Below are positions 9,102 through 56,499 of a stretch of 64,000 bases of DNA, piece after piece; position 1 is the first letter of the stretch; every line of letters begins with the position of its first letter. The position numbers and the translations under genes are program-made. The DNA is from Streptantibioticus silvisoli (lineage in GTDB: Bacteria; Actinomycetota; Actinomycetes; Streptomycetales; Streptomycetaceae), in NCBI RefSeq assembly GCF_027947535.2, contig NZ_JAAGKO020000039.1:1-64000 (forward strand), written 5' to 3'. The notes under the pieces are model-generated. The model did not search any database, was not told where the DNA came from, and was given only the letters and a program-made list of their open reading frames with translations.

Positions 9102-9171
9102 CCGCAGCCGGCCCGACCGGTTGTCAGCTGATCACCGTTTGTTGGCGGGTCACCACTCGGACAGGAGTCAC

Positions 9172-9957: not shown

Positions 9958-11347
9958 GGCCGCCCCGGCCCGCGGCCCCGCGGTGCCCGCCGTTCCGGTC
10001 GAGACGTGGCAGGCCGCGCCCGGACCGCGGATGGCGAGGTCCGCGGTGGTCTCCGCGTTCTGCATGTTCTTCCTCCTCGGCGCGTTCACCGCGTCGATCG
10101 GCGCCTCGCTCCCCGCCCTGCGGGAGCGTTTCGGCTCCGGCCACGCGGTCGGTGACATCGTCAGCCTGTACAACTTCGGCGCGCTGGCGGCCACCGCCGC
10201 GATCGGGCTGCTCGGCCGCAGGATCAGGATGCGGCTGGTCATCGGCGCCCTGCTCGTCTTCCTCGCCGCCGGAACGGCCGGCATGGGGCTGAGCGCCGGC
10301 TGGACGTCGTACGTCTCGTTCGCCGCGGTGGCCGGGGTCGGCTACGGCGGGATGACGCTCACGCTGAACACCGCGTTCGCCCGGGGGTTCGGCGAGCGCA
10401 GCTTCGTCATGGTGAACCGGCTCAACGGCGTGTTCGGCGTCGGCGCCATGCTCGGCCCCCTGGCGGCCGGCCTCGCCGGGCGGTTCGACATCCGCGTGCT
10501 GGCCCTGGCCGCCTGCCTGGTCTCCCTCACCTGTGTGCTGGTCCACCGGGCCGGCGTGGCGCTGGAGGACCCGGCGCCCGCGCGTCAGCCGTCCGGGACG
10601 CGGGACGGCACCTCGCCGGCGGCACGTCAGCCGTCCGGTGCGGCAGACGCCGGTCCGGTGGAAGTGCGGGACGGCACCTCGCCGGCAGCACGTCAGCCGT
10701 CCGGTGCCGCCCAGCGGCTGGGCTGGTCGTTCGTGCTGTTCCTCGCGGTGGGGCTGTTCTACGCGGGGACCGAGACCAGCGTCGGCACCTGGCAGTCCAC
10801 CCAGCTGGTCAACACCGGCTGGAGCGCGGCGGCGGCCACCACCGCGGCCTCGGGCTTCTGGGCCGGGATGGCGCTCGGCCGGTTCGTCCTGCCCCGGCTC
10901 ACCCACCGGGTACCGCCGAGCACCCTGCTGCCGCTCCACCTCGCCGCCGCGGTGGGCATGCTGACGCTGGCCGCGGTCCCCCATCTGGCGCTGCTGGCCT
11001 ACCCGTTGGCCGGCCTGTGCCTGGCACCGGTGCTGCCCACCCTGGTGACCTGGGTCTCGCGCCTCGCCAGGGTCCCGCAACGGGCGACGTCCGTGCTGAC
11101 CCTGTGCTGCATGCTGGGCAACGCCGTGGTCCCCGCAGTGGTGCAGACCCTGGTCGGCTCGCACGGGACCACCACGATCCCACTGGTCCTGGCGGCGTCC
11201 TGCGCGGTCACCCTGTGCTGGACGGTGGGGCTGTGGTGGGCGCAGCGCGGCAGGAACGCCTCCGGAACCGGGCCGGGAACGCGCACGGACAGCGGAGGCT
11301 CACCCCGGGCCCCGCTCCCGTCGCAGGACCCCCGGCCGGCGGTCTGA
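9950..11347 (+). CDS. MFS transporter with repeat-expanded central loop
   Basis: A 465-aa 12-helix MFS protein (ALPALRERFGSGHAVGDIVSLYNFG at the start, GLLGRRIRMRLVIG as motif A). It probably exports or imports the molecule handled by the carbamoyltransferase and HAD enzyme. The ATG lies inside the end of the HAD gene. The central cytoplasmic loop (about residues 205-260) contains three copies of ARQPSG and two of DGTSPAARQPSG, encoded by near-identical DNA. This is an in-frame minisatellite expansion not expected in the family. Confidence 0.88.
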   Translation: MREAAPARGPAVPAVPVETWQAAPGPRMARSAVVSAFCMFFLLGAFTASIGASLPALRERFGSGHAVGDIVSLYNFGALAATAAIGLLGRRIRMRLVIGALLVFLAAGTAGMGLSAGWTSYVSFAAVAGVGYGGMTLTLNTAFARGFGERSFVMVNRLNGVFGVGAMLGPLAAGLAGRFDIRVLALAACLVSLTCVLVHRAGVALEDPAPARQPSGTRDGTSPAARQPSGAADAGPVEVRDGTSPAARQPSGAAQRLGWSFVLFLAVGLFYAGTETSVGTWQSTQLVNTGWSAAAATTAASGFWAGMALGRFVLPRLTHRVPPSTLLPLHLAAAVGMLTLAAVPHLALLAYPLAGLCLAPVLPTLVTWVSRLARVPQRATSVLTLCCMLGNAVVPAVVQTLVGSHGTTTIPLVLAASCAVTLCWTVGLWWAQRGRNASGTGPGTRTDSGGSPRAPLPSQDPRPAV

Positions 11348-11389
11348 CCGGTGGGGGCGGAATTCGACCGACTGCACCGCGTCCCGCCG

Positions 11390-11675
11390 GCCGCCGAGGA
11401 CACCCCGACGCCCTCCTCGGCGACAAGGGCTACGGCTCCCAAACCAACCGCCTGAACTGCGAAGACGCGAAATCCTGCCCGTCATCTCCCGCCGTGGAGA
11501 GGCCAAGGTCCACGGACCGGGCAAGCTCCCATACGTCGTCGAGCAGACCTTCACCCCGCTCGCCAGTTCAATCGCCTCGCCGTCCGCCGGGCACGACGCA
11601 CCGAACTCCACAATGCTTTCGTCTCCCTCGCATGCGCACTCATCTGCTGAAGGCGCCTCAAACGAGCCCAACCAT
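11390..11675 (+). pseudogene. IS5-family transposase, decayed 3' end
   Basis: Reading across frames gives the C-terminus of an IS5-type DDE transposase: DALLGDKGYGS near 11407, then LRRREILPVISRRG, then KLPYVVEQTF, then QFNRLAVRRARRTELHNAF, FVSLACALIC and RRLKRA. Two frameshifts (near 11456 and 11560) and one in-frame stop (TGA at 11647, where the family has Trp) break it, and the 5' two thirds are missing. It sits at the left edge of the lower-GC unit 11.9-14.05 kb and supports acquisition of that unit by transfer. Confidence 0.8.
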
Positions 11676-11924
11676 GATCGTGTTAAAAGCCTTTATCCAC
11701 TACCACAGACTCGCGCAATGAGACGGCTTCTGAGTGTGCCGAAGCCACTGCGGTGTCCGTTGATGGTCTCGGCGAGTGCGCTCGCTCCGTGTACCTCTTG
11801 CGCCACATTTACAGCCCCGAAGTTCGGGACCTACTGGCACCTGACGCCTGGTGTTGCCCAACGTCCGACGATGCCAGACTGGTCGTCAGTTCACTGTTGC
11901 GATCGGCTTGGGGGCCTCACAGCC

Positions 11925-12779
11925 ATGTCGTCCGTCACCATGCTCTGGACCGCCTTGGAAGACCAACTGCTACCGGTCTTCAGCGACTACCGTGCCCGCC
12001 TGGCAGATCTACCAGTAGAGGTGAAGGATGACCGGACGCTGCTGACTGAGGCTGATGTGGTGGTCCAAGATCTGATCATCGCCGCCATTCGCAAGCTGGA
12101 GCCAGGTGCAGTGGTGATTGCCGAGGAGGATGAACGCACCAAGACTCGCACGGACGTTCGAGCATCTGAGGGGCGAGTCTGGGTAGTCGATCCCATTGAC
12201 GGCACCGCAGAATTCGTTCGTGCGGAGCGGACGGAATTTTGTTCCGTTGTCTGCCTGCTCGAGGATTGGCAGCCCTCCGCAGCATTCGTACTGGCACCCG
12301 AGTTGGCTACTGGTCGACAACCAATCATCGTCACGGCAGATGCCTCACGCCGTGAAATCCGCGTTGGCGGCGAGCTACGCGCACCTTTCCGTGGGCTCAG
12401 CGGCCACGTATCAGCCACGCGGAGCGCGGACGAGGATCGGACCGAGTTCGATACCACTGCTAAAAAGGCGGGCCTGACGGTTAAGAGCGGAACCACGTCG
12501 CAAACCATTGACATGGTTCGGACCACCCTGGATCTCAGCGACCTCACGACACCGGCATTGCCTCCCTTCGACTTGTTCTGGCGCCGCCACCAGAAACTAT
12601 GGGATGGCGCGGCGGGGCTCTGTCTGGCCAAGGCAGCCGGGCTGCGAAGTTGCACTGAACAAGGCAAGGAAATCCCGCTTGATCCGGAGTTCCTCAGCGC
12701 GGCAACACCTGTCTTCTCTTCCGACATCACCGGCCGCCCCGAGTCCGTGGACTGGCTCCTGAAGGCCATGCGCGGATGA
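11925..12779 (+). CDS. inositol-monophosphatase-family phosphatase
   Basis: A 284-aa Mg-dependent phosphatase of the IMPase/CysQ/FBPase fold. It shows the metal-binding Glu pair (VIAEEDER), motif A VWVVDPIDGTAEF and motif B LWDGAAGLCLAKAAG, in the right order and spacing. Substrates in this family include inositol phosphates, histidinol phosphate and 3'-phosphoadenosine nucleotides; the sequence does not decide. The start is uncertain: ATG 11925 is the last good candidate before the conserved core, and the frame stays open to 11613. The ATGA overlap with the next gene shows coupling. Lower GC than the surroundings. Confidence 0.82.
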   Translation: MSSVTMLWTALEDQLLPVFSDYRARLADLPVEVKDDRTLLTEADVVVQDLIIAAIRKLEPGAVVIAEEDERTKTRTDVRASEGRVWVVDPIDGTAEFVRAERTEFCSVVCLLEDWQPSAAFVLAPELATGRQPIIVTADASRREIRVGGELRAPFRGLSGHVSATRSADEDRTEFDTTAKKAGLTVKSGTTSQTIDMVRTTLDLSDLTTPALPPFDLFWRRHQKLWDGAAGLCLAKAAGLRSCTEQGKEIPLDPEFLSAATPVFSSDITGRPESVDWLLKAMRG

Positions 12780-14047
12780 GCACGGGGCAGCCAGATACTG
12801 GCGTCGTACTAGACGTTACTTCGCTCATCAGCGCTGAAGATTTTTTACTGTCTCAGAATAGACGAACCGCTCCGGAAGACCCATTCGCGCGACAGTGCTT
12901 CGTCGAGGTGATCCAGTCACTGATTTTTATGTCTCAGATCCACGTCGCGCACCCGATCCTGGCAGATCCACGACCGGATGATTTCGGCGAACGACCGTTG
13001 CTCTTACGCACCCTTATGGACGCCCACTTGCTCCGCCCTCTACGCCTGGACGACAGCCAGTTACGTACTGCCACGACTTTTGAAGCGGCGGCGATCCACG
13101 ACCTGCAAGGCGTACACGGCATCTCCAGCATGGCCCGGTTTGTTGAGCACACATTCGCATGCGATGCAGCAACAGTCGGTGGCCAAAACGCTCTATCGGC
13201 CCGCATTCGGGACTGGAGCGCCTTCCAAGAGCGACAGGTCCGCTCAACCACGGGCCATCATGGACGTCGCATCCCTACTCTCGATGGCGTAGAGGAAGAT
13301 GCCTTTGGTGAATGGGCCAGAGCAGCTGCAATTATTTTGGGGGAAGCACTGGAAGATATCACTGCTCCCGGGCAGGGACGATACCTCATGGCTACCCTGG
13401 CCCGGGGCATGAAATACCGCGCGCGGTCGGAGGCATTGGGCATCTCATATCAGTCCCACCCCATGCGTCGCGATTTTTCTCTAACTTTCGACATGACCCG
13501 CGGAGGCGCCGACAAAGATCAAGTGCTCGATCTTATTCAGACTGTGCGCGGCATTCACACTACAATTGCACAGGCAGCCGAACGCAATGAGCACCACCGA
13601 GTGCGTCTGCTTCAGCTGGAACTACCTCTATTGGGTGGGCGCCTGTGGGCTCGCGATGAAGTCGGCACTCACAGCGACAAAGAGTGGACCAAAATTGTCG
13701 TCGGACGTATCAGGGACTACCGGCAGCGCGCAGCGGAGCTGCGACGAGCTGTGCAGCAGTGTGTGACCGACGAAGACTACGCGCGCCTGGCGCGTGACAT
13801 AGATAACGTCAAAAGGCAGCTTTTAGAACGCCTCGGGCTACGCCGCGTCGAACTGTCCGACATCGAGCGGGAACTGGTGGGCACCGTCGCCTCTGTTGCC
13901 GAGGCTGCTCCGGGTGTTCCAAAGGTCAGCGGGTTATGGTTCGGGGCTCGTACACTGGGCAAGCAGTTCTCCTTCACAGGAGCCCAGCCTTTCCAACGTT
14001 TCCTTTATCGAGAATTTATCGATGCTTGGAAGCGCGCTGGTCGATAA
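12776..14047 (+). CDS. unrecognised 423-aa protein coupled to IMPase gene
   Basis: I do not recognise this protein. It is soluble and mostly alpha-helical, with no signal peptide or membrane segment. The N-terminus VVLDVTSLISAEDFLL superficially resembles the first strand of PIN-domain proteins. The middle is rich in helices and the C-terminal third has charged coiled-coil-like segments (YRQRAAELRRAVQQC). It contains several TTA codons (for example 12845, 13004 and 13061) and has markedly lower GC than its neighbours. Its ATG overlaps the phosphatase stop. Both genes look like one transferred unit next to IS debris; a partner-dependent nucleotide-related role is possible but unproven. Confidence 0.7.
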   Translation: MSTGQPDTGVVLDVTSLISAEDFLLSQNRRTAPEDPFARQCFVEVIQSLIFMSQIHVAHPILADPRPDDFGERPLLLRTLMDAHLLRPLRLDDSQLRTATTFEAAAIHDLQGVHGISSMARFVEHTFACDAATVGGQNALSARIRDWSAFQERQVRSTTGHHGRRIPTLDGVEEDAFGEWARAAAIILGEALEDITAPGQGRYLMATLARGMKYRARSEALGISYQSHPMRRDFSLTFDMTRGGADKDQVLDLIQTVRGIHTTIAQAAERNEHHRVRLLQLELPLLGGRLWARDEVGTHSDKEWTKIVVGRIRDYRQRAAELRRAVQQCVTDEDYARLARDIDNVKRQLLERLGLRRVELSDIERELVGTVASVAEAAPGVPKVSGLWFGARTLGKQFSFTGAQPFQRFLYREFIDAWKRAGR

Positions 14048-14285
14048 TACGCGCCTGCGCTTGCGATGAAGCCTGACTTCCTGGTCATCCATCCGCGGCC
14101 CTCACGATGCCGAAGCCGCGCCGCGTGCCGGACTCACTCGTCCTGGCCGCCGTCATCGTCGTCGAGATCGACGGCCTCCGGATCGCGCGGCGGGCGCAGG
14201 CCGGTGACCGGCTGGGACCGCCTCCGGTGGGCGGGTGCCCGACACGCGTCCGGGTCCCCGGTGAGGAACAGGATGCGGTACCGCG

Positions 14286-15830
14286 TCAGCTCACGTTGAC
14301 GGCGGTGTCGTCCACGACGAAGGACGTCTGGTCCTGGGCGTCCTCGACACCGGTGAACTTCAGCGTCACGGTCTGCCCGGCGTACGCGGCCAGGCTGTAG
14401 GTGTGCTGGGCGTAACCGGTGTTGTGGCTCAGGTTGGAGAAGGTGGCCAGCGTGCCCAGGACGGTGCCGGAGCTGTTGAGCACCTGCACCTTCAGCGTGT
14501 CGTAGGCGGTGCTGGTCGAGGTCTCGGCGGTGTCGACGTGCAGCCAGAAGCTGGCGTTCGCCGTGGTGCAGCCGGACGGGATGGAGACCGACTGGGAGGC
14601 GGTGTCCGTGGTCGCCTTCCCGTAACCGTCGAGCCACGCCTTGTACGAACCGGTGTGCGCCGGCTCCTTGGTGGCGGTGTTGATGATGCCGCTGGTCGCG
14701 GTCCAGCCCGAAGTGCCGGACTCGAAGCCGGGGTTGGTCAGCAGCTGGCCGCTGGTGCAGCCGCCGGTGCCACCGGTGGTGCCGCTGGTCGTACCGGACG
14801 TGGTGCCCGAGGTCGTGCCGCTCGTCGTACCGGTGGTGGAGCCGGCCGTCGTACCGCCGGTGCCGCCGCCCGAGGAGCCGCCGCCGAGCCACGCGGTGGC
14901 GTTCAGCGCGAGGGCCGCGTTGGAGTCGGTGTTCCAGCCGTTGTACAGCGTGTTGCCGGACTCGCCGGTGCCGTCGTCGACCGGGGAGGAGTCACCCCAG
15001 AAGGCGACGCGGCCGCTGCCGTAGGTGCTGGTCGCGAAGAACACGCCGGTGTTGCCGCTGGAGCCCGAGGTGTAGAGCAGGCCCTTGGCGTTGGCGTTGT
15101 CCGACGGGTGCAGCGTCCAGGTGGTGCCCGAGTCGATCTCGCTGCTGGTGACCTTGCCGAACGAGCCGTTGAGCACCGGGTCGCTGGAGTCGTTGATCGC
15201 GGTCGGCGTCCCGGAGGAGATGTCCAGGTCGTCGTCGCTGACACCGAACGGGTCGTTGTTGTCGACGCCGTTGTTGGACATCAGGTCCTGGATGACCTGC
15301 GGGGAGTCCCAGCCGTCGTTGTCGCGGTCGCTGCCCTTGTGGTCCGAGATCAGGAACAGCCCGCCGCCGTTCTGCACGAACTGCATGACCGCGGTCTTCT
15401 CGGCCGCCGACAGCTGGTTGTTCGGCTCGTCCAGCACGAAGGTGTTGAAGTTCTTCAGGTCCAGCGCGCCACCGGTGCCGTACGTGATGGTGTTGCCGGA
15501 ACCGAGGGTGTCCAGCGTGTAGTCGCCGGTCTTCTGGAGCGCGACACCCCAGGCGGACAGCGCACCGGTCCAGTCGGTCTCCTTCGACGGCGAGGCGTTC
15601 TGCTTCGTCGGGTCCGGGATGCTGGTGCTGATGATCCAGTCGGCGTTGCCGGCCGTCTCCGCCTTGGTGTCGTCGAAGAGCACCTTCTGCGTCGTCGCGG
15701 CGGGGGCCGCGGCGCCGTTGGCCGCGGGGGCCGGGGCCGCGCTGGCGTGCGCGGCCGCGCCGGCCGCCACCGCCGCTACGACCGCCACGCCGCCGACCAG
15801 GCCGCGCAGGTGTCTGTGTGTCCCAAGCAT
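14286..15830 (-). CDS. secreted protein, GATase-like domain plus C-terminal beta-sandwich
   Basis: A 514-aa exported protein. A signal peptide ([20 protein letters not shown], cleaved after AHASAAPA) is preceded by a strong RBS (GGAGGTAGGACG). Residues about 45-325 look like a DUF4350/GATase-like alpha/beta domain ([40 protein letters not shown]). A Gly/Thr/Ser linker with repeats of TTSG follows, then a beta-sandwich of about 150 residues starting [11 protein letters not shown] and ending [10 protein letters not shown], the type appended to secreted proteases and glycosidases for surface or substrate binding. The Asp-rich stretch DSDDDLD-like near residue 190 may bind calcium. Substrate unknown. 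Confidence 0.75.
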
Positions 15831-16645
15831 CCGTCCTACCTCCGGGTGGGGTGACCGTGGTCCGTGCGGGTGCCGATTCTCCGCGCGTAGAACGTGGAGC
15901 CGACCACCAAGACATGGAGAGCGGCTGAACCGTACATGACATACATGCCCCGGGCAACGGGTTTGCTCCCCTGAACCGGGTGGCGGGGCGGTTTTCGTAT
16001 ACGGGTCGCTCCGCGGGTGCGCTCCGCTGGGTGGGGTGCGCTCCGCTGGGCGGGGTGAGGTTGCGGGGTGGGGTGAGGTTGCGGGGTGGGGGTGAGGTTG
16101 CGGGGGGCGGTGAGGTTGCTGGGGGTGCGCTTTCGGCGACGGGGAGGTTGCTGGGGGGCGGTGCGGTGAGGTTGCGGGGGGCCTTCGGCGACGGGGAGGT
16201 TGCCGGGGGGCGGTGCGGCGAGGTTGCGGGGGGCCTTCGGCGACGGGGAGGTTGCTGGGGGGCGGTGAGGTTGCGGGGGGTGCCTCCATGGTCGACCTCC
16301 CGCCGCGCCGACGGAAGAGCGGCTCGCCGGTGACCCGCCGATGGCGGTCCGGCGGATGGCAGCACGCGGCGGTGCGGACCGCGTCGCGCACGCCGACGCG
16401 CGGACGCCGGCGCACAGCCCGGCGCCGCCCGTGGCGCACGCGTGCGGTGACCCGCTGATGGCGGTCCGCCGTCCCGGCTCCGGGGAGGCGGTGCGGCGGG
16501 GTGGGGCGGCTCCGGCTCACTGGCCGGAAGCCATCCAACTGATCGTCAACTTCCTTACGTATCAGCACGGTTGGAGTTAAATTCGAATCTTCTTCCGAGG
16601 CCGCGGCGCCGCGAGGCTCCTGGGCCCTGGCACGGCGGGGGCGAC
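15831..16645. other. 815-bp gene-free stretch
   Basis: This is the upstream region of two divergent genes. Apart from the GAGGTTGC repeat array (16020-16290) it holds no supportable gene; the long frames here are products of repeat composition and high GC. The AT-rich part at 16545-16600 is the likely promoter for the large receptor-like gene. Confidence 0.5.
16020..16290. repeat. G-rich tandem array, core GGTGAGGTTGCGGGG
   Basis: About ten imperfect units of GAGGTTGC followed by G-runs, some separated by CTTCGGCGACGG. The G-runs of 4-7 bases at short spacing could form G-quadruplexes on the plus strand. It is related to the arrays at 56515 and 59951. Confidence 0.75.
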
Positions 16646-19600
16646 ATGGCCGAGGGGCGCGCGTACACCAGGGCCTTACGTGAGATGTTCGGACTCACCG
16701 ACTTTCTCGTGCAGAGGTTCCGGACCGATCACGGCCTCATGCCGCTCGTGGTCTTCCAGGCCGAGAGCGGCAAGGCGAAGGACGACGCGACCGTCGAGTA
16801 CATGGTCGAGCAGCTGCGCCTGCGCCACGTCGAGGGCGAACTGATCTGTTTCGACCTCAAGGAGCACGCGAACCGGACGGACGCCGGGAAGAAGCGGAAC
16901 CAGGACCAGTACGACGCGGCTTTCGACCTGCTCGACTCGCTGTCCAACGCGTCCAACTGGGGCGGCTCCAACCTGCCGCGCTCCCGGCGGCTGGCCTTCC
17001 CCCGCAGCCTGCTGGTCAAGGCGATCGCGGAGGCGGCCGAATCCGGAAGCGGGAAGAACGCACTCGACGAACTCAGGAAGATGCGCTGGCGGCCCCGGAG
17101 CTCCGGCAGCAGGAAGTGGCTGGCCGGCGAGTTCAAGGCCGTCACCGACGTCGGCAACCTGTTCGGCGCCGTCGTCCTGCTCGTGGTGACGACCGTGCTC
17201 GGCCAGTCGAGCTGGCGCTGGCCCCTGGTCCTGCTCGTCCTGCTGTTCCTGCTGTTCGGGCTGTGGAGGGTCCTCCCGCTCTTCCGTCCCCAGCTGCTCT
17301 GGCTCAGTCCGGTCAACCGCTGGTTCTCCAGGAGCACGTTCCTGGCGGCGGGACAGGGACAGGCCGGCGGGAAGTCGTGGTCGTGGTGGCGTCCGCTGCG
17401 CTCGGGGCGGGTGATGACGCGGCGGGCCGACGGCCTGTCGAAGCTGTTCGCCGCGGCCCCCCGCAGCACCGCCCTCACCCGGGCGCGGGACGCCGATGCC
17501 CCGCAGGAGGAGCCCGCCGGGACGGAGGACACGGGCCGTCACCCGCCGCTGCCGCGCGCCCTCGCGACGCTGGCGGCCCGCCTCGTCCCCGCCGGGTGGC
17601 GCGAACCGGCGGCGAGCGGGACCACCGAAGTCGTCAACACGAAGCAGTACCTGCTCCAACTGCGGACCCTCGCACTGCTGGAGGACCTGCGGGCGCTCTA
17701 CCGGCCGTGGATGCCCGACCTGCGCCGCCGCAAGCGGCCGACGCCCCCGATCATCTTCTTCCCGAGGGCCACCGAGGACAGCGGCACCATCGCCCTGCTC
17801 GACGCGATCAACGACATCCGCTGCCGCCGCAGCGAGGTCGACCCGCTGCTGGTGATCGCCGGCGTGGACCGGGCGGGTATGAGGAAGCTCAGCGAGTTGT
17901 CCGACTCGGGCCTGCGACGGCCGCCGTCGGGTGAGTGGAACGTCGACGTGTACGCGCAGTGGGAGGACGGGCTGCTGCTGGGCCAGTCGCCCAACGGCCG
18001 GCCGTGGATACTGCACCGCCGGATCAGCCGGGAGGACATGGAGGAGACCGCCTGGAAGCTGACCTCCCCGCAGGAACCGGCACGTTCCCTCTGGGTGAGG
18101 ATGTGGTCGGTCTGGACGCTGGCGGCGGTGCTGGTGGTGGCCGTCCTCGCCGCCGGGCGCTTCGGCCAGGACTACGAACACCGCTACTGCGGCAGCCGCA
18201 TCCTCTTCGGCAACCACGACCTGCGGCGGGTGCCCGACCTGGAAGGCACCGGCGTCGAGTGCATCGGAGTGACGGACCGGGCCTACCCGTTCGACGACGG
18301 CGGGTTCCGGCTCAACGGCGGCACCCCGCAGAACCCCGGCACCGGACCGGGCGAGGGCGTCACCGTGAGCACGGTCGAGAACTGGATCACCGCGTCGAAC
18401 GCGACGATCGGCAACAGCCCGCACGTCACCGTCGTCTACGCGGGCCAGCTGTCGACCTGGCAGGACCAGCCGACCCAGGTGCGCAACGGCCTGGAGGAGC
18501 TGGCCGGCGTCTACCTCGCGCAGCAGTACGTCAACAGCGGCAACATGGACGGGCCGAAGATCCGGGTGCTCATCGCCAACGGCGGCCAGGAGCTGCGCCA
18601 CCAGTACCTGATGGCGCAGCAGATCGTCCGGATGGCCAAAAACGATCCGACCATCAGCGCGGTGGTGGGTCTGGGACGCGACGCCGACGACAGCGCGAAG
18701 ACCGTGGGCCTGCTGGAACGCAGCGGCCTGGCGGTGGTCGACACCACCAACTCCTCGCCGACGCTGGCCTCGGACAGCACCAACTACTTCGGGCTGGCCG
18801 CGACCGACCAGGAGGAGGCCAACGCCCTGACCAACGTCCTGCCCAGGACCTCCCGCGAGTCGCCCGCCCTCGTGGTGACCCGCACGCCGCAGGGCACCGA
18901 CGACCAGTACAGCCCGCAGCAGCGGAAGGCGGCCACCACCGCGCTGACGCAGGCCGGGTACAAGGTGCGGCAGGTGTCGTACACCTCCGGCAGCGACACC
19001 TCGTTCTCCACCGCGATCGACACCATCTGCGGCGGCACGTCCAAGGTGATCTACCTCGCCGGCCGGGCGGAGGAGTTCTCCGCGCTGCTGAGCAGCATCG
19101 CCGGCAACGGTTCCTGCGGCCGGCCGCTGGACCTGCTGACCGGGGACGACCTGACGAAACTCGACTTCGACACGAGCACGTCGGTGCCGTCCAACGTGCA
19201 GGTGTACTTCGCCGCGCTCGCCGACCCGGCGGTCACCGGCCAGCAGTCGGCCCTGCTCAACAGCGAGCAGGACGTTCCGCAGCTCAGCGAGCACAACCCG
19301 CGGGCATCCGGGAAGAACACCGACCTGCCCGCGGCGATCCTCAGCGAGCCGATGTTCGAGGACGGCACGCTGTCCCTGGGGTACGAGGCGACGGAGGTCG
19401 TCCAGAACGCCGCGGACAGCGCCGGGGCGGTCGACCACGGCTACCGGTACGCGGTGCTCGCCCAACTGCGCCGGACCGTCCTGGCCAACCAGCCCACCGG
19501 CTGGGTCGACTTCGAACACTTCCCGCAGATCGGCACGGCGACCGGTCACGGGATCGTCATCTACGGGGTGACCCACAGCGACGAGGGAAAACCGACCCTC

Positions 19601-48681: not shown

Positions 48682-49902
48682 TCACGGGTGGGCGGGGGCG
48701 GCCGGTTCGGGGGCCGGCGCTCCGTCGGTCAGGCCGGCGGCGGCCGGTTCGGCGGCGTCGGTCCAGCGGATCCGCAGGCTGCACAGCGAGACGATGACCG
48801 CCGAGACGGCCACCGCTCCCAGGCCCCACACCAGGCTGCTGGCGCTCGCTATGAAGCCGATGACCGGCGGCCCGGCCAGCAGGCCCGTCGTTCCCATGGC
48901 GGCGACCAGGGTCAGCGCGTCGGAACCGCGCGCCGCCGCGGCCACGTAGACGCACGGGGTCACCGCCGCGATGCCCAGCCCGACGCAGGCGAACCCGAGC
49001 AGGGCCGGCACCACCCCGCCGGCCAGCAGGGCCACCGCCAGCCCGAGCCCGGCCACCGCGCTGCCGACCCGGACGATGCGGGCGTCGCCCCAGCGGCTGC
49101 GCCAGCCGTCGGCGAACAGGCGGGCCAGCACCATCATGACCGAGACGACGGCGATGCCCATGGGCGCCAGTTCCGCCGACGCGGCGGCGACGTTGCGCAG
49201 GTAGAGGGCCGACCAGTCGTTCATGGCGCCCTCGGTGATGGTGCCGAACGCCATGGCCAGGCCCATCCACAGCGTCATGCGGGCCGGCAGGCTCCAACTG
49301 CGGCGGGTCTTCTTCTCCTTGACCGGGGCCGGCTGGTCGCGGGTGAGCAGTCCGGGCCCGGCGTAGGCGACCAGCAGCACCAGGATGACGGCGGCCACGC
49401 CGAAGTGCGCCACCACGGTCGAGGTCAGCGCGTTCATGCCGGAGGCCAGGAGCGCGGCGAACAGCGACCCGGCGCTGAACGTCGCGTGGAGCCTGGCCAT
49501 GGCGTTGCGCCGGTACTCCACCTCCAGCGCGGCGCCCTGCGCGTTCATGGCCACGTTCAGGCAGCCCACCAGGACGCCGTCGCAGCACATGACCAGCAGC
49601 GCGAGCGGGTAGTCCGGCGCCGCGGCCAGCGCGAAGAGCAGCAGGGCCAGGCCGAGCGCCGACAACAGCGCCAGCCGGCGCGAGCCCAGCCGTCTCATCA
49701 GCGACGCCACCAGCGGGAACGACGCGGCCGCGCCGATGCCGGCGGCCATCAGCAGCAGGCCCACTTCCGCCGTGGTCAGGCCGAGGTGCGCCTTGATCGC
49801 GGGAATCCGCGACGCCCAGGTGGCGTACTGGAATCCGAGGGCGCAGAACAGGGCGGCGATCGCCAACTGCGCCCGGCGGAAAGGATCGTGCACGCGGAAC
49901 AT
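48682..49902 (-). CDS. MFS transporter, last gene of five-gene operon
   Basis: A 406-aa 12-helix MFS protein (YATWASRIPAIKAHLGLTTAEVG; ASFPLVASLMRRLGSRRLALL) of the type that includes YbjJ-like transporters. The proposed job is export of the product made by the upstream genes. It lies 5 bp after the GNAT gene, so it is in the same operon. C-terminal tail rich in Ala/Pro. Confidence 0.87.
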   Translation of the reverse strand: MFRVHDPFRRAQLAIAALFCALGFQYATWASRIPAIKAHLGLTTAEVGLLLMAAGIGAAASFPLVASLMRRLGSRRLALLSALGLALLLFALAAAPDYPLALLVMCCDGVLVGCLNVAMNAQGAALEVEYRRNAMARLHATFSAGSLFAALLASGMNALTSTVVAHFGVAAVILVLLVAYAGPGLLTRDQPAPVKEKKTRRSWSLPARMTLWMGLAMAFGTITEGAMNDWSALYLRNVAAASAELAPMGIAVVSVMMVLARLFADGWRSRWGDARIVRVGSAVAGLGLAVALLAGGVVPALLGFACVGLGIAAVTPCVYVAAAARGSDALTLVAAMGTTGLLAGPPVIGFIASASSLVWGLGAVAVSAVIVSLCSLRIRWTDAAEPAAAGLTDGAPAPEPAAPAHP

Positions 49903-49907
49903 GTGAA

Positions 49908-50477
49908 TCAGCCCACTCCGTCTTGCGGTGATGACCCGCGCGGGGAGGCGCCGGTCGGCTTCGGGTGGCCGGACGGGTCCGCCGGCACCGTCATGGACAT
50001 GTACGCGGAGTTGGCGCCGTAACCCTCCGACAGGGCGATTTCCCGGTGGCCGGTGAATCCGTTGGCCGCCCAGAAGGTCTCGGTGCCGGCCACCGCGACC
50101 AGGGAGACGCTCCGGTAGCCGTGCGTGCGGGCGGTCGACAGCAGGTGCCGCAGCAGGTGCCCGGCCAGTCCCCGGCCGCGCAGGTCAGCGGCCACCACGC
50201 AGTCGTGCAGGTGCAGGTTGGCGGAGGTGAAGGCGGTCTCCTCCGGGCCGCCCAGCTCCGGGTACCGGCTCTCGGGGTAGGGCAGCGCCAGCAGGTAGCC
50301 CGCCAGTCGCTGCCCGAGGTCCAGCGCGAAGCAGGTCCGCGGTGACGCGCGGACCTTGGACTCCAGCGCGGCGCGTTCCTCCGACAGCCCGAGGGGTTCG
50401 TACGCGGCGGCCTCCAGGGCCACGATCGCGTCCCAGTCCCCCTCGCGGACCTCACGTATCCGGGTCGGCGGCGTCAT
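49908..50477 (-). CDS. GNAT acetyltransferase of the five-gene operon
   Basis: A 189-aa N-acetyltransferase. CVVAADLRGRGLAGHLLRHL (about 92-112) holds the acetyl-CoA loop (R-G-R-G-L-A) and FWAANGFTGH is the C-terminal strand. It directly abuts the decarboxylase stop with no gap. It would acylate the amine produced by the decarboxylase, as tailoring or self-protection. Confidence 0.88.
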   Translation of the reverse strand: MTPPTRIREVREGDWDAIVALEAAAYEPLGLSEERAALESKVRASPRTCFALDLGQRLAGYLLALPYPESRYPELGGPEETAFTSANLHLHDCVVAADLRGRGLAGHLLRHLLSTARTHGYRSVSLVAVAGTETFWAANGFTGHREIALSEGYGANSAYMSMTVPADPSGHPKPTGASPRGSSPQDGVG

Positions 50478-51734
50478 CTACCGCACCCCTTCCGGCAGTC
50501 GGGGCCGCTGGTCGTCCGGGCCGCTGTCCTCGCCGCGGATCCAGGTGTACGGCAGCGGGCTGAAGCCGTTGAACCCGCGCGTCATGTAGCTGATGGCGTA
50601 GGCGCCGCAGGACAGCACCCAGACCGGGTCACCGGAGACGACCGCCTCGGGCACCTGGACCAGGCCGTGCTCGTGGGAGTAGGCGTCGTCGCTGTCGCAG
50701 CTGGGACCGGCGACGACGGCCGGCACCCCGGCGGCGTCGCGGTGGGTGGGGAAGACGAGCCGGTAGTGCAACGCGTCCATCTCGTACAGGCCGTTGAACT
50801 TGCCGCAGCTGAGGTAGAGCCAGCGCCGCGGTTGTCCGTCCAGGCCGTGCCGTACGGTCAGCCGGGCCACGTGCGCGCGGATGGCACCGTGGTCGGCGAC
50901 CAGGTAGCGGCCCGGTTCCACGACGAAGTCCAGGCCGGCCCCGGCGATCTCCCGGCACCGGCGCATCCCCTCGCGGACGACGACGAAGATCTTGTCCAGC
51001 GGCGGGTCCAGCTGCTGCCCGCGGTGGTCGAGGTAGCCCAGCGCCGGCAGGCCGCCGCCCATGTTGACGTGGTCCAGCGACATCCCGCGCCGGGCCAGGG
51101 CGGTGAGCACGTCCGCCAGCCGGTCGAACGCCGTCCGCCAGGCGTCGGCCGTCATCTGCTGCGACCCGACGTGGACCGACAGCCCCGCCGGGGTCAGCCC
51201 CGCCCGCCGGGCCGCCTCCATCACCGCCACCGCGTCGGCGGCCGAGCACCCGTACTTGTGGCTCAGGCCCCACAGGGCGCCCTCGCCGTCGGTGGCCAGC
51301 CGGCAGAACACCCGGGCGCCGGGGGCGTGTTCCGCGATCGCCCGGACGTCCTCCAGGCAGTCGGTCGCGAACAGCCCGATGCCCAGGCGGTGGGCGTCGG
51401 CGATGTTCCGGTCGGACTTGACGGTGTTGCCGTAGTGGATGCGGTCGACCGGCACGCCGGCCCTGATCGCCTGCACGATCTCGTTCGGGCCGGCCGCGTC
51501 GACCCCGGCGCCCGCCGCCGCCAGGCAGGCCAGCACCTCGTCGACCGGGCACGCCTTCATGGCGAACCGCACGGCCACGCCGGGCAGTTCACGCACCAAG
51601 GACGCGTAACGCGCCTCGATCCCGGCGAGGTCGAAGATGATCCGGTCGTCGGTGGCGGCCGCCAGGGCGGCGAGCAGCGGTGAGTTCCCGTGGGCCGTCT
51701 CGTGGGCCGTCTCGTGGGCCGTCTCGTGGGTCAT
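50478..51734 (-). CDS. ornithine/DAP-type PLP decarboxylase
   Basis: A 418-aa group IV (alanine-racemase-fold) decarboxylase. PLP Lys60 lies in VRFAMKACP; HVGSQQ and MGGGLPAL bind phosphate; EPGRYLVADHG is the C-domain entry; and GPSCDSDDAYSH carries the active-site Cys and Asp residues of the partner subunit. It probably decarboxylates a basic or modified amino acid. The first 16 residues are THETAHETAHETAHG, from a 12-bp DNA repeat. Overlaps the upstream gene by 4 bp. Confidence 0.9.
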   Translation of the reverse strand: MTHETAHETAHETAHGNSPLLAALAAATDDRIIFDLAGIEARYASLVRELPGVAVRFAMKACPVDEVLACLAAAGAGVDAAGPNEIVQAIRAGVPVDRIHYGNTVKSDRNIADAHRLGIGLFATDCLEDVRAIAEHAPGARVFCRLATDGEGALWGLSHKYGCSAADAVAVMEAARRAGLTPAGLSVHVGSQQMTADAWRTAFDRLADVLTALARRGMSLDHVNMGGGLPALGYLDHRGQQLDPPLDKIFVVVREGMRRCREIAGAGLDFVVEPGRYLVADHGAIRAHVARLTVRHGLDGQPRRWLYLSCGKFNGLYEMDALHYRLVFPTHRDAAGVPAVVAGPSCDSDDAYSHEHGLVQVPEAVVSGDPVWVLSCGAYAISYMTRGFNGFSPLPYTWIRGEDSGPDDQRPRLPEGVR

Positions 51735-53062
51735 CGGCTGCCCCGGTCCGGCTGGCGCTGAACGGAACGCGGCCGGGTGAGCCGGGCGGCGGCCACCATC
51801 GGCTCCCACGCCTCGATGAGCAGCGCGAAGTCCTCGGTGTCCTGCTGGGCCTCGGCGAGCAGCCGCTCGCGGCGTGCTGCCAGGACGTCGGCGAACTGCG
51901 CGTACCGGTCGCCCAGCCGGCAGTAGGACCGGTCCAGGCTGTCGAGCCGCGCGACGTTCTCCGAACGGTCCAGCCCGGTGCTCTCCCGGACGAACCCGGC
52001 GACCACGGACGCCCGTACCCGGTACTGGTCGTCGAGCAGCGACTCGCCGGCCTGGGCCATCCGGTCGTAGACGTGGTTGAGGTACAGCATCGACAGCACG
52101 AACTTCACGAACCGCGTCTGGTACGCGATGAATCCCTGCGGGGTCCTGCGCTCGCCGGTGTAGTAGTTCACGATGTGCCGGTTGTGCAGGACGCCGGGCA
52201 GCGCGGCGGACTCCACCAGGTGCATGAGGAAGTAGTCGCTGCCGATGGTGTCGGTCGCGGGCGGCAGCGGCACGCTCTCGTGCACCCGGTGGAAGCTGAT
52301 GTTGCACATGTCCACCCGCATGGGGTCGACGACCGTCAGGGTCGAGTCGTCCCGGGTGAACACCTCGGCGCCGGCCCCGAGAAACGATTCCTCAGCGAGT
52401 TCCCGCTTGCGCTCGGCCGACCACTCGGCCGGCGCCCACAGGCCGACCATGTCGAGGTAGACGTCACGGTCGCGTTCGAGGATGTCGCCGATGTCCACCG
52501 ACAACTCCCCCACGAACGACGCGCCCACCATCGTCACCGGCCGGTCCGCGTACCGGGCGTCCAGCGTGCTGCGCGTCACGCCGCCCACCGCGTCGGCCGC
52601 GCGCGATCCGATCGACGTCAGCTCGTGGTGCACGGGGAAGACCGGCACGCCGTCGACGGTCTGGTAGCGGCTGTCGGAGTCCCTGCGGTGCACGGACTCG
52701 CAGCCCAGCGCGGCGGCGATCAGGAACGCCCGGTTGGTGCACGCCCCGTACGACAGGGCGGCCGGGAGCATCAGGTCGAGCATCAGGTCGGGCTTGGCCG
52801 GGCCGGCCCGGTGGATCACCTGCCGCAGGAAGTCCCGCTGCACCGCCTCGTCGAAGTGGTGCACGACCACCCCGGGCACCGCGGGCAGCTCCCGGACGAC
52901 CGCGGCGTGCGCGGCGAACACCGGCGCGGCGGAGGAGTCCAGGATCAGCAGGTGGACCTCGACGTCGAAGTGCCCGGCCGCGTAGGCCGCCTCCTCGCCG
53001 ATGGCCGTGATCGCCTCGGCGCAGGCCCGGTTGGTGGGAAGGGTCAGACAGATTCGGCGCAT
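51731..53062 (-). CDS. GT-A-like protein of the five-gene operon
   Basis: A 443-aa cytoplasmic protein. The start MRRICLTLPTNRAC, the following helix and the strand VEVHLLILDSS resemble a nucleotide-sugar-binding Rossmann-like half. HRRDSDSRYQ (residues 125-134) sits where a GT-A glycosyltransferase has its DxD metal motif. The C-terminal half is helical with no known pattern. I think it is a family present in other streptomycete clusters (a DUF-type annotation), but I cannot place it surely; glycosyl- or nucleotidyl-transfer is an inference. It overlaps the dioxygenase by 19 bp and the decarboxylase by 4 bp. Confidence 0.68.
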   Translation of the reverse strand: MRRICLTLPTNRACAEAITAIGEEAAYAAGHFDVEVHLLILDSSAAPVFAAHAAVVRELPAVPGVVVHHFDEAVQRDFLRQVIHRAGPAKPDLMLDLMLPAALSYGACTNRAFLIAAALGCESVHRRDSDSRYQTVDGVPVFPVHHELTSIGSRAADAVGGVTRSTLDARYADRPVTMVGASFVGELSVDIGDILERDRDVYLDMVGLWAPAEWSAERKRELAEESFLGAGAEVFTRDDSTLTVVDPMRVDMCNISFHRVHESVPLPPATDTIGSDYFLMHLVESAALPGVLHNRHIVNYYTGERRTPQGFIAYQTRFVKFVLSMLYLNHVYDRMAQAGESLLDDQYRVRASVVAGFVRESTGLDRSENVARLDSLDRSYCRLGDRYAQFADVLAARRERLLAEAQQDTEDFALLIEAWEPMVAAARLTRPRSVQRQPDRGSR

Positions 53063-54108
53063 GCCGGTTCTCCGGTCGTCACGTCGCGTTCCGGCCCGCT
53101 CCACGACTCCAGGCCCAGCAGCCTGGCGCCCAGGCCGGTCAGTTCGGCGGTGCCGTACCTGAGGGATTCGTGCTTGTCGGCGTCGCCGACCAGCGTCGCG
53201 TTCCAGTCCGGCGTGCTGAGGTTGCGCCAGGAGTCCACCCGGGACGCGCGCAGCCGCTCGTTCGACTCCAGCGCGGGCATCATGGACAGGTACTGGACCG
53301 CCCGCACCCCGTTGTCGGAGGTGTTGCGCGCCACGCCGTGCGCCAGCAGGCCGTTCCAGATCAGCAGGTCGCCGGCCTCCAGCTCCGGCCGGACCACCGG
53401 GAACTCCGCCCGGTCGCACGCGGGCCGGATCGGGTCGCGGTCCGCCGGCTGGGCGACCCGCCAGGGGTCGAACCGGCGGAACAGCTCCGGCGAACACTGG
53501 AAGCCGCCGTGGTCCGGCCGGGTGTCGTTCAGGGCGATGATCCCCTGGACCCGCTGCGGCAGCACGCCGAGCGTGGTGTCGACGTCCCAGTGCAGCTCGA
53601 TGTCGAAGCCCTGGTCGGTGGGCGCGATGAGCGCGCGGTCCCGGTTGCGGACGTTGGGCGGGTTGAGGTTGAGCCGGTCCAGGGTCACCCACAGCTGCTC
53701 GCAGTCCCACACGTCGACGAACGCGTCGTAGACCCGCTGCGCCTGGCGGCTGTCCCACATCAGCTGGTGGTGGTACGCCTCGACGAACCCGTAGATGTGC
53801 AGCTCACGGTCCAGGTCCGACCGGAACTCCCGGTCCTGGTACCAGGTCTCCGGCCGTTCGGGGTCGAGCCCCTGGAAGTCCCAGGCGAAGTCCAGCAGCC
53901 GCTTGGCCGCGTCGGCGGGTATCGCGCGCTTCACCACGACGTATCCGTAGGTCTGCCAGAAGGCGAAGTCCTCCGGCGACAGCACCCGCAGCGGCCGGGT
54001 CTTGCGCAGGTCGCGCAGCATCGTCTGCGCCAGGTAGGTGTCGCCGTCCGAGCTGAAGTACGGGACGTCGCTGGGCGCGCGGTACAGGTAGCGGTCGGGC
54101 ACCGGCAT
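53044..54108 (-). CDS. phytanoyl-CoA-dioxygenase-family Fe/2OG oxygenase
   Basis: A 354-aa non-haem iron oxygenase. ELHWDVDTTLG gives the His173-x-Asp175 metal pair, LAHGVARN the distal His257, and Arg269 is a candidate 2-oxoglutarate ligand. The length is at the long end of the PhyH family, with an N-terminal extension. It is the first gene of the operon; ATG 54108 has a GGAG RBS. It probably hydroxylates the free or carrier-bound amino acid before or after decarboxylation. Confidence 0.9.
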   Translation of the reverse strand: MPVPDRYLYRAPSDVPYFSSDGDTYLAQTMLRDLRKTRPLRVLSPEDFAFWQTYGYVVVKRAIPADAAKRLLDFAWDFQGLDPERPETWYQDREFRSDLDRELHIYGFVEAYHHQLMWDSRQAQRVYDAFVDVWDCEQLWVTLDRLNLNPPNVRNRDRALIAPTDQGFDIELHWDVDTTLGVLPQRVQGIIALNDTRPDHGGFQCSPELFRRFDPWRVAQPADRDPIRPACDRAEFPVVRPELEAGDLLIWNGLLAHGVARNTSDNGVRAVQYLSMMPALESNERLRASRVDSWRNLSTPDWNATLVGDADKHESLRYGTAELTGLGARLLGLESWSGPERDVTTGEPACAESV

Positions 54109-54504
54109 GCAATCACTCCAAGGTTCGAACGCTTCCCGTCCCCGGGCGGATGCCTCTCGCCGGCGGCGGCTCGGCCCGGTCGGGTCACGCCGGCGGGCCG
54201 GCCGCGCGTCGGCGGGCGGCTCGGCCGGGGCGGGTGGCTCCGCCGGGCGGTTGGCGCGGGGTGGCGCGGGCTGCGCGGCCGGGGCGGTCGCGTGTCGCAA
54301 CGGTCTGGACGGTCGGCGCGGTCGGCCTGTCGCCGGGTACGGGTCGGGCGTGTCGTCGGCGCGGTCGGCCTGTCGCCGGGTACGGGTCGGACGTCGGCGG
54401 TGAACGGCCGCGGGGGCGACGGCGCACGCCGGGCACCCTGCCGCACGGCACCGGCCGACCAACTCGCGTGCCGCCGACGGTGGTGCGCCGCACGCGTTCC
54501 GATT
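54109..54504. other. upstream region of the five-gene operon
   Basis: 396 bp without a supportable gene, despite long open frames. It contains the direct repeat 54312-54390. The operon promoter must lie here or in the palindrome region to the right. Confidence 0.45.
54312..54390. repeat. 36-bp direct repeat
   Basis: Two copies (54312-54347 and 54355-54390) of a unit starting GTCGGCGCGGTCGGCCTGTC, identical on reading, 43 bp apart start to start. Confidence 0.75.
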
Positions 54505-54516
54505 GAACACGTGTTC
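54505..54516. promoter_or_regulatory. perfect palindrome GAACACGTGTTC
   Basis: A 12-bp perfect palindrome with a CACGTG core in the intergenic region shared by the five-gene operon and the GH3 gene. The symmetry suggests a dimeric regulator; none is known to me for this exact sequence. Confidence 0.4.
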
Positions 54517-54524
54517 CACTAAAA

Positions 54525-54536
54525 TGGACTAGACCA
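54525..54536. promoter_or_regulatory. DasR-like (dre) operator
   Basis: TGGACTAGACCA differs at one position from the dre core TGGTCTAGACCA bound by the GlcNAc-responsive GntR regulator DasR. It lies 450 bp upstream of the GH3 gene and 9 bp from the palindrome at 54505, so it could act on either side. Confidence 0.5.
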
Positions 54537-54601
54537 ACTTCGGTGTCAACAGGTGATTCGCGGGGTGGGTGCGGTGGGGCCAGGCGGGACGGGGGTCATC
54601 C

Positions 54602-54818
54602 GGGGGGGGGGGGGGGGGTGGCGCATTGGCGAGGGGTGCGGCCCGGAGCCGGGCCGGAGGGATGGTGGGCGGCACGGTCCGGGAGCCGGCGAAATGGCGG
54701 GCGGTACGGCCCGGAGCTGGGCCGGAGGGATGGCCGGCGGCGCGGTCCGGGAGCCGGGGACATGGCGGGCGGTACGGCCCGGAGCTGGGCCGGAGGGATG
54801 GTGGGCGCGGCCGGAGGG
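54602..54818. repeat. G17 tract and 68-bp minisatellite
   Basis: A run of 17 G at 54602-54618, then three imperfect copies of a unit of about 68 bp (starting 54635, 54703 and 54771, the last truncated) built on GGTACGGCCCGGAGCTGGGC. Non-coding. Confidence 0.75.
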
Positions 54819-54987: not shown

Positions 54988-56499
54988 ATGTCCTCCAGCA
55001 AGCACAGCGATGAGCTGCGACGACTCGCGCTCTCCGTCCTGCAACCGGGTTTCGTGGGCACCGAGGCGCCGGACTGGATACGGCGCGACATCGGTGACGG
55101 CCTGTCGTCCGTCGTGCTCTTCGCCCGCAACATCGTCTCCGCCGAGCAGGTCGCCCGGCTCACCGACCAACTGCGCGCCGAGAACCCCGCGTTGATCATC
55201 GCGATCGACGAGGAGGCGGGAGACGTCACGCGGCTGGAGTCCTCGACCGGTTCGACCCGGCCGGGCAACTTCGCCCTCGGCGCGGTCGACGACGTCGAAC
55301 TGACCGAATCCGTCGCCCGCGACCTGGGCCGCCAGCTGCACGCCGCCGGGGTCAGCCTGAACTACGCGCCCAGCGTGGACGTCAACTCCAACCCCGACAA
55401 TCCCATCATCGGCGTCAGGTCGTTCGGCATCGACTCCGGTGTGGTGTCCCGGCACGCCACCGCGTGGATCCGGGGTCTCCAGTCGGCCGGGGTCGCCGCC
55501 TGCGCCAAGCACTTCCCCGGCCACGGGGACGTCGCCATCGACTCCCACCACGGCCTGCCCACCTACGACGCGGACCTGGAAGAGGTCACCACGCAGGCGC
55601 TGGCCCCCTTCCGGGCCGCCCTTGCCGCGGGCGTGCGCGCGGTGATGAGCGCGCACCTGCTGGTCCCCGCCTACGACCCGGACCTGCCGGCCACCCTCAG
55701 CCGCCGCATCCTCAACGGCCTGCTGCGCGAGGAACTCGGGTTCGACGGCCTGATCGTCACCGACGCCATCGAGATGGGCGGCGTCGCCCAGCGCTACGGC
55801 ATCGACGGCGCCACGGTGAAGGCGGTCGCCGCGGGCGCCGACGCGATCTGCGTCGGCGGGGAGAGCGCCGAGGAGTCGACCGTCGGCCAGTTGTCCGGTG
55901 CGCTGGTGCGGGCCGTGACGTCGGGAGAGCTCACGCAGGAACGGCTGGCCGAGGCGGCCGACCGCGTCGCGCAGTTCGCCGACTGGTCGATCGGCCTGGG
56001 CCGGGCCGTGCCCGTCAACCCCATCAGCGGCGACATCGGCTTCGTCGCCGCCCGGCGCGCCATCCGGCTGGCCGGCCCCGCGCAGAACGCGCTGCCGCTG
56101 GCCGCCCCTCCGCACGTCGTCGAGCTGGTCCCCTCCACCAACCTCGCCATCGGCAAGGAGACCCCGTGGGGCGTCGCCGTCCCGCTGCGCGAACGGCTGC
56201 CCGGAACGACCTTCGTCCGGGTGCACCACCAGCAACTGGCCGCCCGACCCGACGTCCTGGCGGAGTACGCGCTGGCGCCGGCCGTGGGACGCCCGCTGGT
56301 GGTGGTCGTCAGGGACGCCTCACGCAACAAGTGGATGGGCGCGGCCCTGGCCGACCTCACCGCGGCCCGCCCGGACGCGATCGTCGTGGAGATGGGCCTG
56401 CCGGGCGGCCCGTCCGCCGGAGCGGTCCAGATCTTCACCCACGGAGCGACGGCCGCCTCCGGCGTGGCAGCGGCGGAGGTCCTGGTCGGAGCGCGCTGA
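54988..56499 (+). CDS. GH3 beta-N-acetylglucosaminidase (NagZ-like)
   Basis: A 503-aa cytoplasmic glycosidase. It has the NagZ signature CAKHFPGHGDVAIDSHHGLP, which includes the Asp-His catalytic dyad of GlcNAc-specific GH3 enzymes, and VTDAIEMGG with the nucleophile Asp. A shorter C-terminal domain follows (from about 360). No signal peptide, so it acts on imported chito-oligosaccharides or muropeptides. ATG 54988 has a GGAAGG RBS. DasR-like sites on its promoter fit a role in aminosugar use. Confidence 0.9.
   Translation: MSSSKHSDELRRLALSVLQPGFVGTEAPDWIRRDIGDGLSSVVLFARNIVSAEQVARLTDQLRAENPALIIAIDEEAGDVTRLESSTGSTRPGNFALGAVDDVELTESVARDLGRQLHAAGVSLNYAPSVDVNSNPDNPIIGVRSFGIDSGVVSRHATAWIRGLQSAGVAACAKHFPGHGDVAIDSHHGLPTYDADLEEVTTQALAPFRAALAAGVRAVMSAHLLVPAYDPDLPATLSRRILNGLLREELGFDGLIVTDAIEMGGVAQRYGIDGATVKAVAAGADAICVGGESAEESTVGQLSGALVRAVTSGELTQERLAEAADRVAQFADWSIGLGRAVPVNPISGDIGFVAARRAIRLAGPAQNALPLAAPPHVVELVPSTNLAIGKETPWGVAVPLRERLPGTTFVRVHHQQLAARPDVLAEYALAPAVGRPLVVVVRDASRNKWMGAALADLTAARPDAIVVEMGLPGGPSAGAVQIFTHGATAASGVAAAEVLVGAR

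Follow-up and report, generated by a model that had tools for sequence, protein, structure and literature searches.

The window analysed here is a 64-kb stretch (positions 1 to 64,000 of contig NZ_JAAGKO020000039.1) from the 8.7 Mb draft genome of Streptantibioticus silvisoli. Its minus strand carries, from 54108 to 48682, a compact operon of five genes, each overlapping or abutting the next, encoding an oxygenase (OXY), a protein of family DUF6271, a decarboxylase (DEC), a GNAT N-acetyltransferase and a transporter of the major facilitator superfamily (MFS). We put at about 60% the probability that this operon, probably controlled by DasR, makes and exports a sugar-modified, decarboxylated and acylated metabolite derived from an amino acid. 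This reading is carried by gene content, conservation, catalytic residues, a DasR-type (dre) site upstream of OXY, in-frame DEC-GNAT fusions and the exchange of downstream modules; from these we infer substrate and sugar donor, the sequence of the reactions, control by DasR, export and the role in the organism.

Organisation and conservation of the operon

OXY (53044..54108, 354 residues) is a PhyH-family Fe(II)/2-oxoglutarate (2OG) oxygenase with a PF05721 match of 44 bits (cut-off 22) and the residues H173-x-D175, H257 and R269. Its gene overlaps by 19 bp that of the DUF6271 protein (PF19787; 51731..53062, 443 residues, 771.3 bits, cut-off 25), a predicted GT-A-fold sugar transferase marked by D128-S-D130 (DxD), D190, D276, H293 and R295. 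This gene in turn overlaps by 4 bp that of DEC (50478..51734, 418 residues; Orn_Arg_deC_N, PF02784, 144 bits, cut-off 23.4), a pyridoxal-phosphate (PLP) fold-type III decarboxylase resembling ornithine and lysine decarboxylases (ODC/LDC), with K60, H188, an EPGR motif, C346-D347 and Y379. The GNAT gene follows with zero gap (49908..50477, 189 residues; Acetyltransf_1, PF00583, 44.6 bits, cut-off 20.7) and, after 5 bp, the gene of the MFS transporter, a presumed exporter (48682..49902, 406 residues; MFS_1, PF07690, 87.7 bits, cut-off 33.4). Open reading frames and Pfam matches above cut-off thus agree with the five co-oriented, overlapping or abutting genes described in the initial annotation. 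No carrier or condensation gene is found among the five, nor are there large assembly-line genes, and a search of a phage collection gave no match.

Conservation was assessed on 105 loci, of which 102 are distinct: the window itself, the 80 best of 144 confirmed loci, 20 picked to span the range of scores, and 4 of 23 plasmid records. The counts therefore lean towards close relatives. Genes were called with a codon-bias script, a simple gene finder that missed or merged some genes, and then clustered. By these calls OXY immediately precedes DUF6271 in 104 of 105 loci, and all five genes stand in order in 88. When the window proteins were used as tblastn queries and all five were required on one strand, the order was recovered in 93 of the 104 loci other than the window (94/105 counting it). 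The same gene order therefore recurs far beyond chance. The 11 loci without the full ordered set are L059, L060, L061, L062, L074, L116, L124, L129, L131, L138 and L143. In L074 the MFS gene is on the opposite strand, and the locus of L116 stops after GNAT.

Among 394 genomes of the window's family, surveyed with an oxygenase threshold of E up to 1e-60, DUF6271 was found in 162, the oxygenase in 161 and both in 156 (about 40%). Six genomes have DUF6271 only and five the oxygenase only, the latter five with far weaker matches (E 1e-84 to 1e-92). In a survey of the phylum, DUF6271 occurred in 5 of 396 genomes, all 5 from the window's family. Tree distances of OXY and DUF6271 correlate (r 0.80, 101 loci). 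The core pair occurs, among others, in Streptomyces, Actinacidiphila, Streptantibioticus and Actinokineospora. The last of these (L137) belongs to another order, the Pseudonocardiales, and has the complete five genes in order. Amycolatopsis has the core pair without MFS, and Actinocrispum (L132) has the core pair with DEC and GNAT fused; both genera belong to the Pseudonocardiales as well. The genes are thus kept together in relatives, and the proposal of a single biosynthesis-like operon gains from this; the evidence on the basic substrate and the nucleotidyl transfer that came with it is detailed below.

Predicted structure of DUF6271

The PF19787 match is full-length (profile positions 1-430 of 434). 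An AlphaFold model of DUF6271, built with 37 window and relative sequences, had a predicted local distance difference test (pLDDT) of 91.5 and a predicted template modelling score (pTM) of 0.91. MtdL was its top structural match both in Foldseek (E 1.6e-06) and in VIA-align (Z 23.9, root mean square deviation 3.4, 313 residues, 13% identity). The VIA-align ranking placed MtdL (Z 23.1-23.9) ahead of rice UAM2 (Z 20.9) and of mannosyl-3-phosphoglycerate synthases (Z 17.8 and below). On the strength of this model we confidently predict a GT-A fold, with the GT75 pyranose mutases as nearest structural matches. The best matches being GT-A enzymes, the earlier description of the protein as GT-A-like is upheld; nothing was found in support of nucleotidyl transfer, which had been offered beside glycosyl transfer as its activity.

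DUF6271 resembles the GT75 mutases and reversibly glycosylated polypeptides (MtdL, rice UAM) in its fold (Z 20.9-23.9 over more than 300 residues), in a DxD motif after a strand, in a His that ends a later strand and has x-Arg after it, and in an Asp that opens a helix. In the model, D128-S-D130 follows a strand, H293 stands at a strand end and is followed by N-R295, and D276 lies just before a helix. D128 is present in 104 of 105 sequences, and D130, D190, D276, H293 and R295 in all 105 (window and the L062 copy included). According to passages of the MtdL study (PMC9937993), the DXD motif and His287, at a strand end, hold the metal and Arg289 is in contact with the diphosphate, while Arg159, needed for mutase activity, and Asp260 are proposed as nucleophile and base, respectively. 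The residues of MtdL that resemble the DUF6271 set are D109-111, D260, H287 and R289, the matching being by order and secondary structure.

However, between DUF6271 residues 131 and 248, placed after the DxD as MtdL Arg159 is, no Arg is conserved in 90% of the 37 sequences, so that self-glycosylation of DUF6271 at the same place is unlikely. Because the autoglycosylated Arg has no conserved counterpart, we read DUF6271 as a putative metal-dependent enzyme that transfers sugar to an external acceptor, and treat a mutase as the rival reading. Unlike its fold, its sequence shows no tie to GT75. Identity to MtdL is about 13%, no sequence-profile signal was seen, and a Pfam search at E up to 1 matched only DUF6271 and not RGP (PF03214). 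Neither did hhalign against one bacterial GT75 protein reveal similarity, nor did a search of solved structures by sequence with a single DUF6271 protein give a link. The gene context also differs from that of GT75 systems. A DUF6271 profile searched against solved structures returned four TRAF6 sequences at E of about 0.05, which we took as chance. A limited literature search found no paper naming DUF6271 and no title describing such an operon.

Oxygenase and decarboxylase

The triad H173, D175 and H257 of OXY, together with R269, is present in each of 104 sequences; R269 occupies what we take to be the expected position of the 2OG-binding Arg. With the triad, the Arg and the PF05721 match, OXY is classed by sequence as a PhyH Fe(II)/2OG oxygenase. 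Its C-terminal half also has a weak but above-cut-off match to Gig2-like (PF07350, 30.9 bits against 27). The Gig2-like family is named for induction by N-acetylglucosamine (GlcNAc) in a fungus, and a passage of a review mentions GIG2 as a GlcNAc-induced metabolic gene. This parallel with the DasR link described below is a possible lead. The conserved OXY C-terminus (...GE.ACA.S[AV]) was considered as a peptide substrate tail and rejected, its last codons overlapping the DUF6271 start out of frame; the GE preceding these codons plausibly encodes the ribosome-binding site of DUF6271.

The nearest solved relatives of DEC are the lysine/ornithine decarboxylases 2plj and 5gjm, with which it shares the PLP lysine, the EPGR motif, the Cys-Asp pair and the C-terminal Tyr. 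Among 98 sequences K60, E273, R276 and Y379 are invariant and C346, the Cys of the CDSDD motif, is found in 97, so the key residues that the initial annotation had noted in oxygenase and decarboxylase are both present and conserved. By these features DEC qualifies as a fold-type III amino acid decarboxylase. It differs from the ornithine/lysine decarboxylases at one position: C310, which aligns without gaps to a Glu of 5gjm, is Cys in 82 sequences, Val in 9, Ala in 4, Ser in 2 and Ile in 1, and acidic in 0 of 98. In the alignment of DEC with 2plj, a gap stands opposite the acidic residue. We take the aligned position to be Asp332 of Trypanosoma brucei ODC (TbODC), contacting the distal amine. 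By this residue DEC would not count as an ornithine/lysine decarboxylase proper, and with the acidic position lost it is not certain that DEC acts on unmodified substrates of the ornithine or lysine type. The basic amino acid first proposed as substrate is thus favoured by the ODC/LDC-like Cys-Asp pair and disfavoured by the position that is never acidic. We suggest that the distal end of the substrate has been modified, as would be expected if hydroxylation or glycosylation came first. DEC scored 126.6 bits against the LysA (diaminopimelate decarboxylase) model TIGR01048, below its cut-off of 297.9.

L051 and L132 (Actinocrispum) each carry an in-frame fusion of DEC with GNAT. These two fusions support action on one pathway, and the joint role proposed for decarboxylase and acetyltransferase is strengthened accordingly. 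A third candidate, L121, was rejected: its decarboxylase frame is shifted mid-gene (within 11305-13071), which appears to be due to a sequencing error or mutation.

A dre site and a GH3 gene upstream of the operon

Two further features belong to the system and lie beyond the span first annotated, in which the regulatory link to chitin and GlcNAc and the neighbouring hydrolase gene were overlooked. One is the dre site TGGTCTAGTCCA (54525..54536, minus strand), an exact core match. It is contained in the sequence TTGGTCTAGTCCATT between the oxygenase gene and the other feature, the divergent gene of a glycoside hydrolase family 3 (GH3) protein (54988..56499, plus strand, 503 residues; PF00933, 243.5 bits). 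Passages of PMC4398421 give the DasR consensus as A(G/C)TGGTCTAGACCA(G/C)T, report the core TGGTCTAGTCCA as bound by DasR upstream of scr5239 in S. coelicolor, and write the site of the dasR promoter as cttggtctagtccata. A term search of the main text of that paper found neither "Phytanoyl" nor "oxygenase".

The exact 12-mer core occurs six times in this genome. Four of the five other copies lie 85-138 bp before chitinase-like genes, and the fifth (L155, site at 47842) lies 106 bp before the gene of a PdtaS-type histidine kinase, a few kb from a das-type locus. Two of the chitinase-like genes (L153, L157) match Pfam GH18 above cut-off; the other two (L156, 27.3 bits; L154, 19.3) fall below its 29.6 and are each 36% identical to L153, and L156 matches PDB Exochitinase 1 (E 5e-61). 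The genome also encodes a GntR-UTRA DasR homologue, 73% identical to that of L142, whose gene adjoins das-type transporter genes with a GH3 gene of their own.

The site recurs across the family of loci. Among the 100 of 104 OXY genes with at least 500 bp upstream, the core lies within 500 bp of the start in 71 as an exact match and in 80 with up to one mismatch. Against this stand 22 and 53 of 1079 other genes from the same loci, the 53 including 14 members of a dasR-like and 9 of a dasA-like cluster. In a 16-mer search of 400 bp upstream, 70 of 102 OXY genes and 58 of 1084 other genes scored at least 22; the window OXY scored low, its site being just outside the 400 bp. Of 48 loci with a divergent GH3 gene 47 have the core, as do 8 of 15 with a co-directional one and 25 of 37 without an adjacent one. 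Therefore dre is not just the site of the GH3 gene. The operon is probably controlled by DasR, a repressor that responds to GlcNAc, so that growth on chitin may switch it on. It shares with the Streptomyces DasR regulon (chitinases, das and nag genes) an exact dre core upstream and a DasR homologue in the genome, and differs in that the predicted target is a biosynthesis-like operon.

A gene of the GH3 cluster directly adjoins OXY in 63 of 105 loci. In eight loci (L142, L103, L110, L114, L123, L134, L136, L139) das-type ABC transporter and GH3 genes immediately precede the operon and point the same way. The window GH3 is 57% identical to its paralogue in the separate das-type locus of the genome. 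It has what we read by eye as a NagZ-type motif, shows no obvious N-terminal signal peptide by eye, and is probably beta-N-acetylglucosaminidase-like. SCO2758, considered as a possible S. coelicolor GH3, was not confirmed as such, one paper naming it nagA.

The long OXY leader (54185-54620) contains short GC-rich near-repeats at about 54320-54400, noticed by eye, and at 54602-54618 its minus strand reads 17 consecutive C.

Variant loci

In four loci (L059, L061, L131, L143) OXY-DUF6271 is kept and followed by a condensation-domain protein and a different MFS transporter. All four also have divergent genes for a class-II-synthetase-like (ligase-like) protein, a small carrier-like protein and a phosphopantetheinyl transferase (PPTase). 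They form one clade in both the OXY and the DUF6271 trees (support 0.99 and 1.0). Family matches were checked in L143 only: condensation scored 49.5 bits (cut-off 30.6), the PPTase 30.6 (cut-off 25) and the synthetase core 26.1, short of the 29.3 required; the 87-residue carrier-like protein had no family match and is carrier-like by eye. The statement that no nonribosomal peptide synthetase (NRPS) is involved thus holds for the window operon but needs qualifying for this clade, in which a condensation-domain protein follows the same core pair.

L143 lies on a S. clavuligerus plasmid, where positions 5869-16650 encode the PPTase, the carrier-like and ligase-like proteins, the oxygenase, DUF6271, the condensation protein, the MFS transporter and two transketolases. 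It shares the OXY-DUF6271 core with the window and has the condensation, PPTase, ligase-like and carrier-like genes where the window has the decarboxylase, GNAT and another MFS. Such a gene set looks like a distinct pathway that has yet to be characterised.

Other arrangements are mixed. L124 combines OXY, DUF6271, DEC and GNAT with members of the ligase-like and carrier-like clusters. Both L124 and L138 have a gene pair of one cluster upstream, of which the tested L138 copy is an ABC transporter. L060 has an ATP-grasp-like gene, a decarboxylase deviating at C346-D347 and a second glycosyltransferase. L062 has DUF6271 and GNAT without an oxygenase; its DxD reads N-D-D and substitutions occur at R126, D128, R249 and D251, so that this is possibly a diverged or repurposed copy. 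Because the pair persists while the following genes change, OXY and DUF6271 are the constant shared core and the downstream genes are exchangeable. Module swaps of this kind, in the four-locus clade and in L124, are typical of biosynthesis and support it here.

Proposed pathway and alternatives

We propose that OXY and DUF6271 form a fixed core that builds a shared intermediate. OXY would hydroxylate an amino acid, and DUF6271 would transfer a sugar to it from a nucleotide donor with the help of a divalent metal. DEC would then remove the carboxylate, GNAT would acylate an amine, and the MFS transporter would export the final product. The GH3 enzyme may remove a GlcNAc-type sugar, either from the product or from an intermediate, or may simply be co-regulated.

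Several observations weigh against this proposal. The AlphaFold model of OXY (pLDDT 52.9) is unusable for its fold, and the GT-A fold of DUF6271 is common to transferases and mutases alike. In L129 (S. katrae) OXY, DUF6271, GNAT and MFS occur without an adjacent decarboxylase, so decarboxylation is not essential everywhere. Upstream of OXY the dre site is absent or poorly matched in 20 of 100 loci; that of the window lies 416 bases from the OXY start codon and could serve GH3. Finally, a reversed-pattern control gave 3 exact matches in this genome against 6 for the dre core, and 79 against 53 with one mismatch; only exact matches and their positions are therefore informative.

The most serious alternative places the operon within chitin and GlcNAc catabolism or detoxification, handling an amino-sugar-derived metabolite rather than making a natural product. 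The dre site common to operon and chitinase-like genes, the GH3 neighbour in 63 loci, the eight operons directly after das-type ABC and GH3 genes and the weak Gig2-like match (30.9 bits) would all suit it. However, chitin use is general in the window's group whereas DUF6271 is patchily distributed (162 of 394 genomes), fold-type III decarboxylases act on alpha-amino acids, a carrier-like/condensation variant exists, and the genome already holds a separate das-type locus; we consider this alternative unlikely. Polyamine modification, with DEC making a diamine that GNAT acetylates and MFS expels, and OXY and DUF6271 as tailoring additions, would agree with the closest solved relatives of DEC and with the DEC-GNAT fusions. 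It accords poorly with the ODC/LDC acidic position, aligned with C310 and never acidic in 98 sequences, and with a constant part that is OXY-DUF6271 and not DEC-GNAT, and we give it a low probability. Similarly doubtful is that DUF6271 is itself a metal-dependent, GT75-like pyranose/furanose mutase of nucleoside diphosphate sugars, leading to a furanosylated product through a transferase encoded elsewhere. MtdL and UAM2 do lead the structural matches, ahead of mannosyl-3-phosphoglycerate synthase, and the conserved DxD, D276, H293 and R295 resemble their MtdL counterparts (PMC9937993). Yet no Arg conserved within 131-248 among the 37 sequences corresponds to MtdL Arg159, no sequence signal links DUF6271 to GT75, and the window operon is without the second transferase that is present in L060.

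Significance

The DUF6271 fold, the dre site, the GH3 neighbour and the condensation-type clade are what this analysis adds to the initial annotation. The operon core is widespread, occurring in 156 of 394 genomes (about 40%) of the window's family, and the consensus DasR site provides an immediate handle, making product discovery directly testable through GlcNAc or chitin feeding and dasR deletion, which are standard approaches. As read here, DUF6271 would also bring a new catalytic variation to the scaffold of self-glycosylating mutases. A bolder version of the biosynthetic reading, which we offer as a long shot, is that DUF6271 is the first member of a new glycosyltransferase family built on the GT75 scaffold. 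The enzyme would have lost its own acceptor Arg and would instead glycosylate a free amino acid, perhaps a basic one that has been hydroxylated. About 40% of the sampled Streptomycetaceae would decarboxylate, acetylate and export the product during chitin digestion, with the neighbouring cytoplasmic GH3 removing the sugar. If this is true, the operon would represent a common, overlooked and chitin-triggered class of Streptomyces metabolite.

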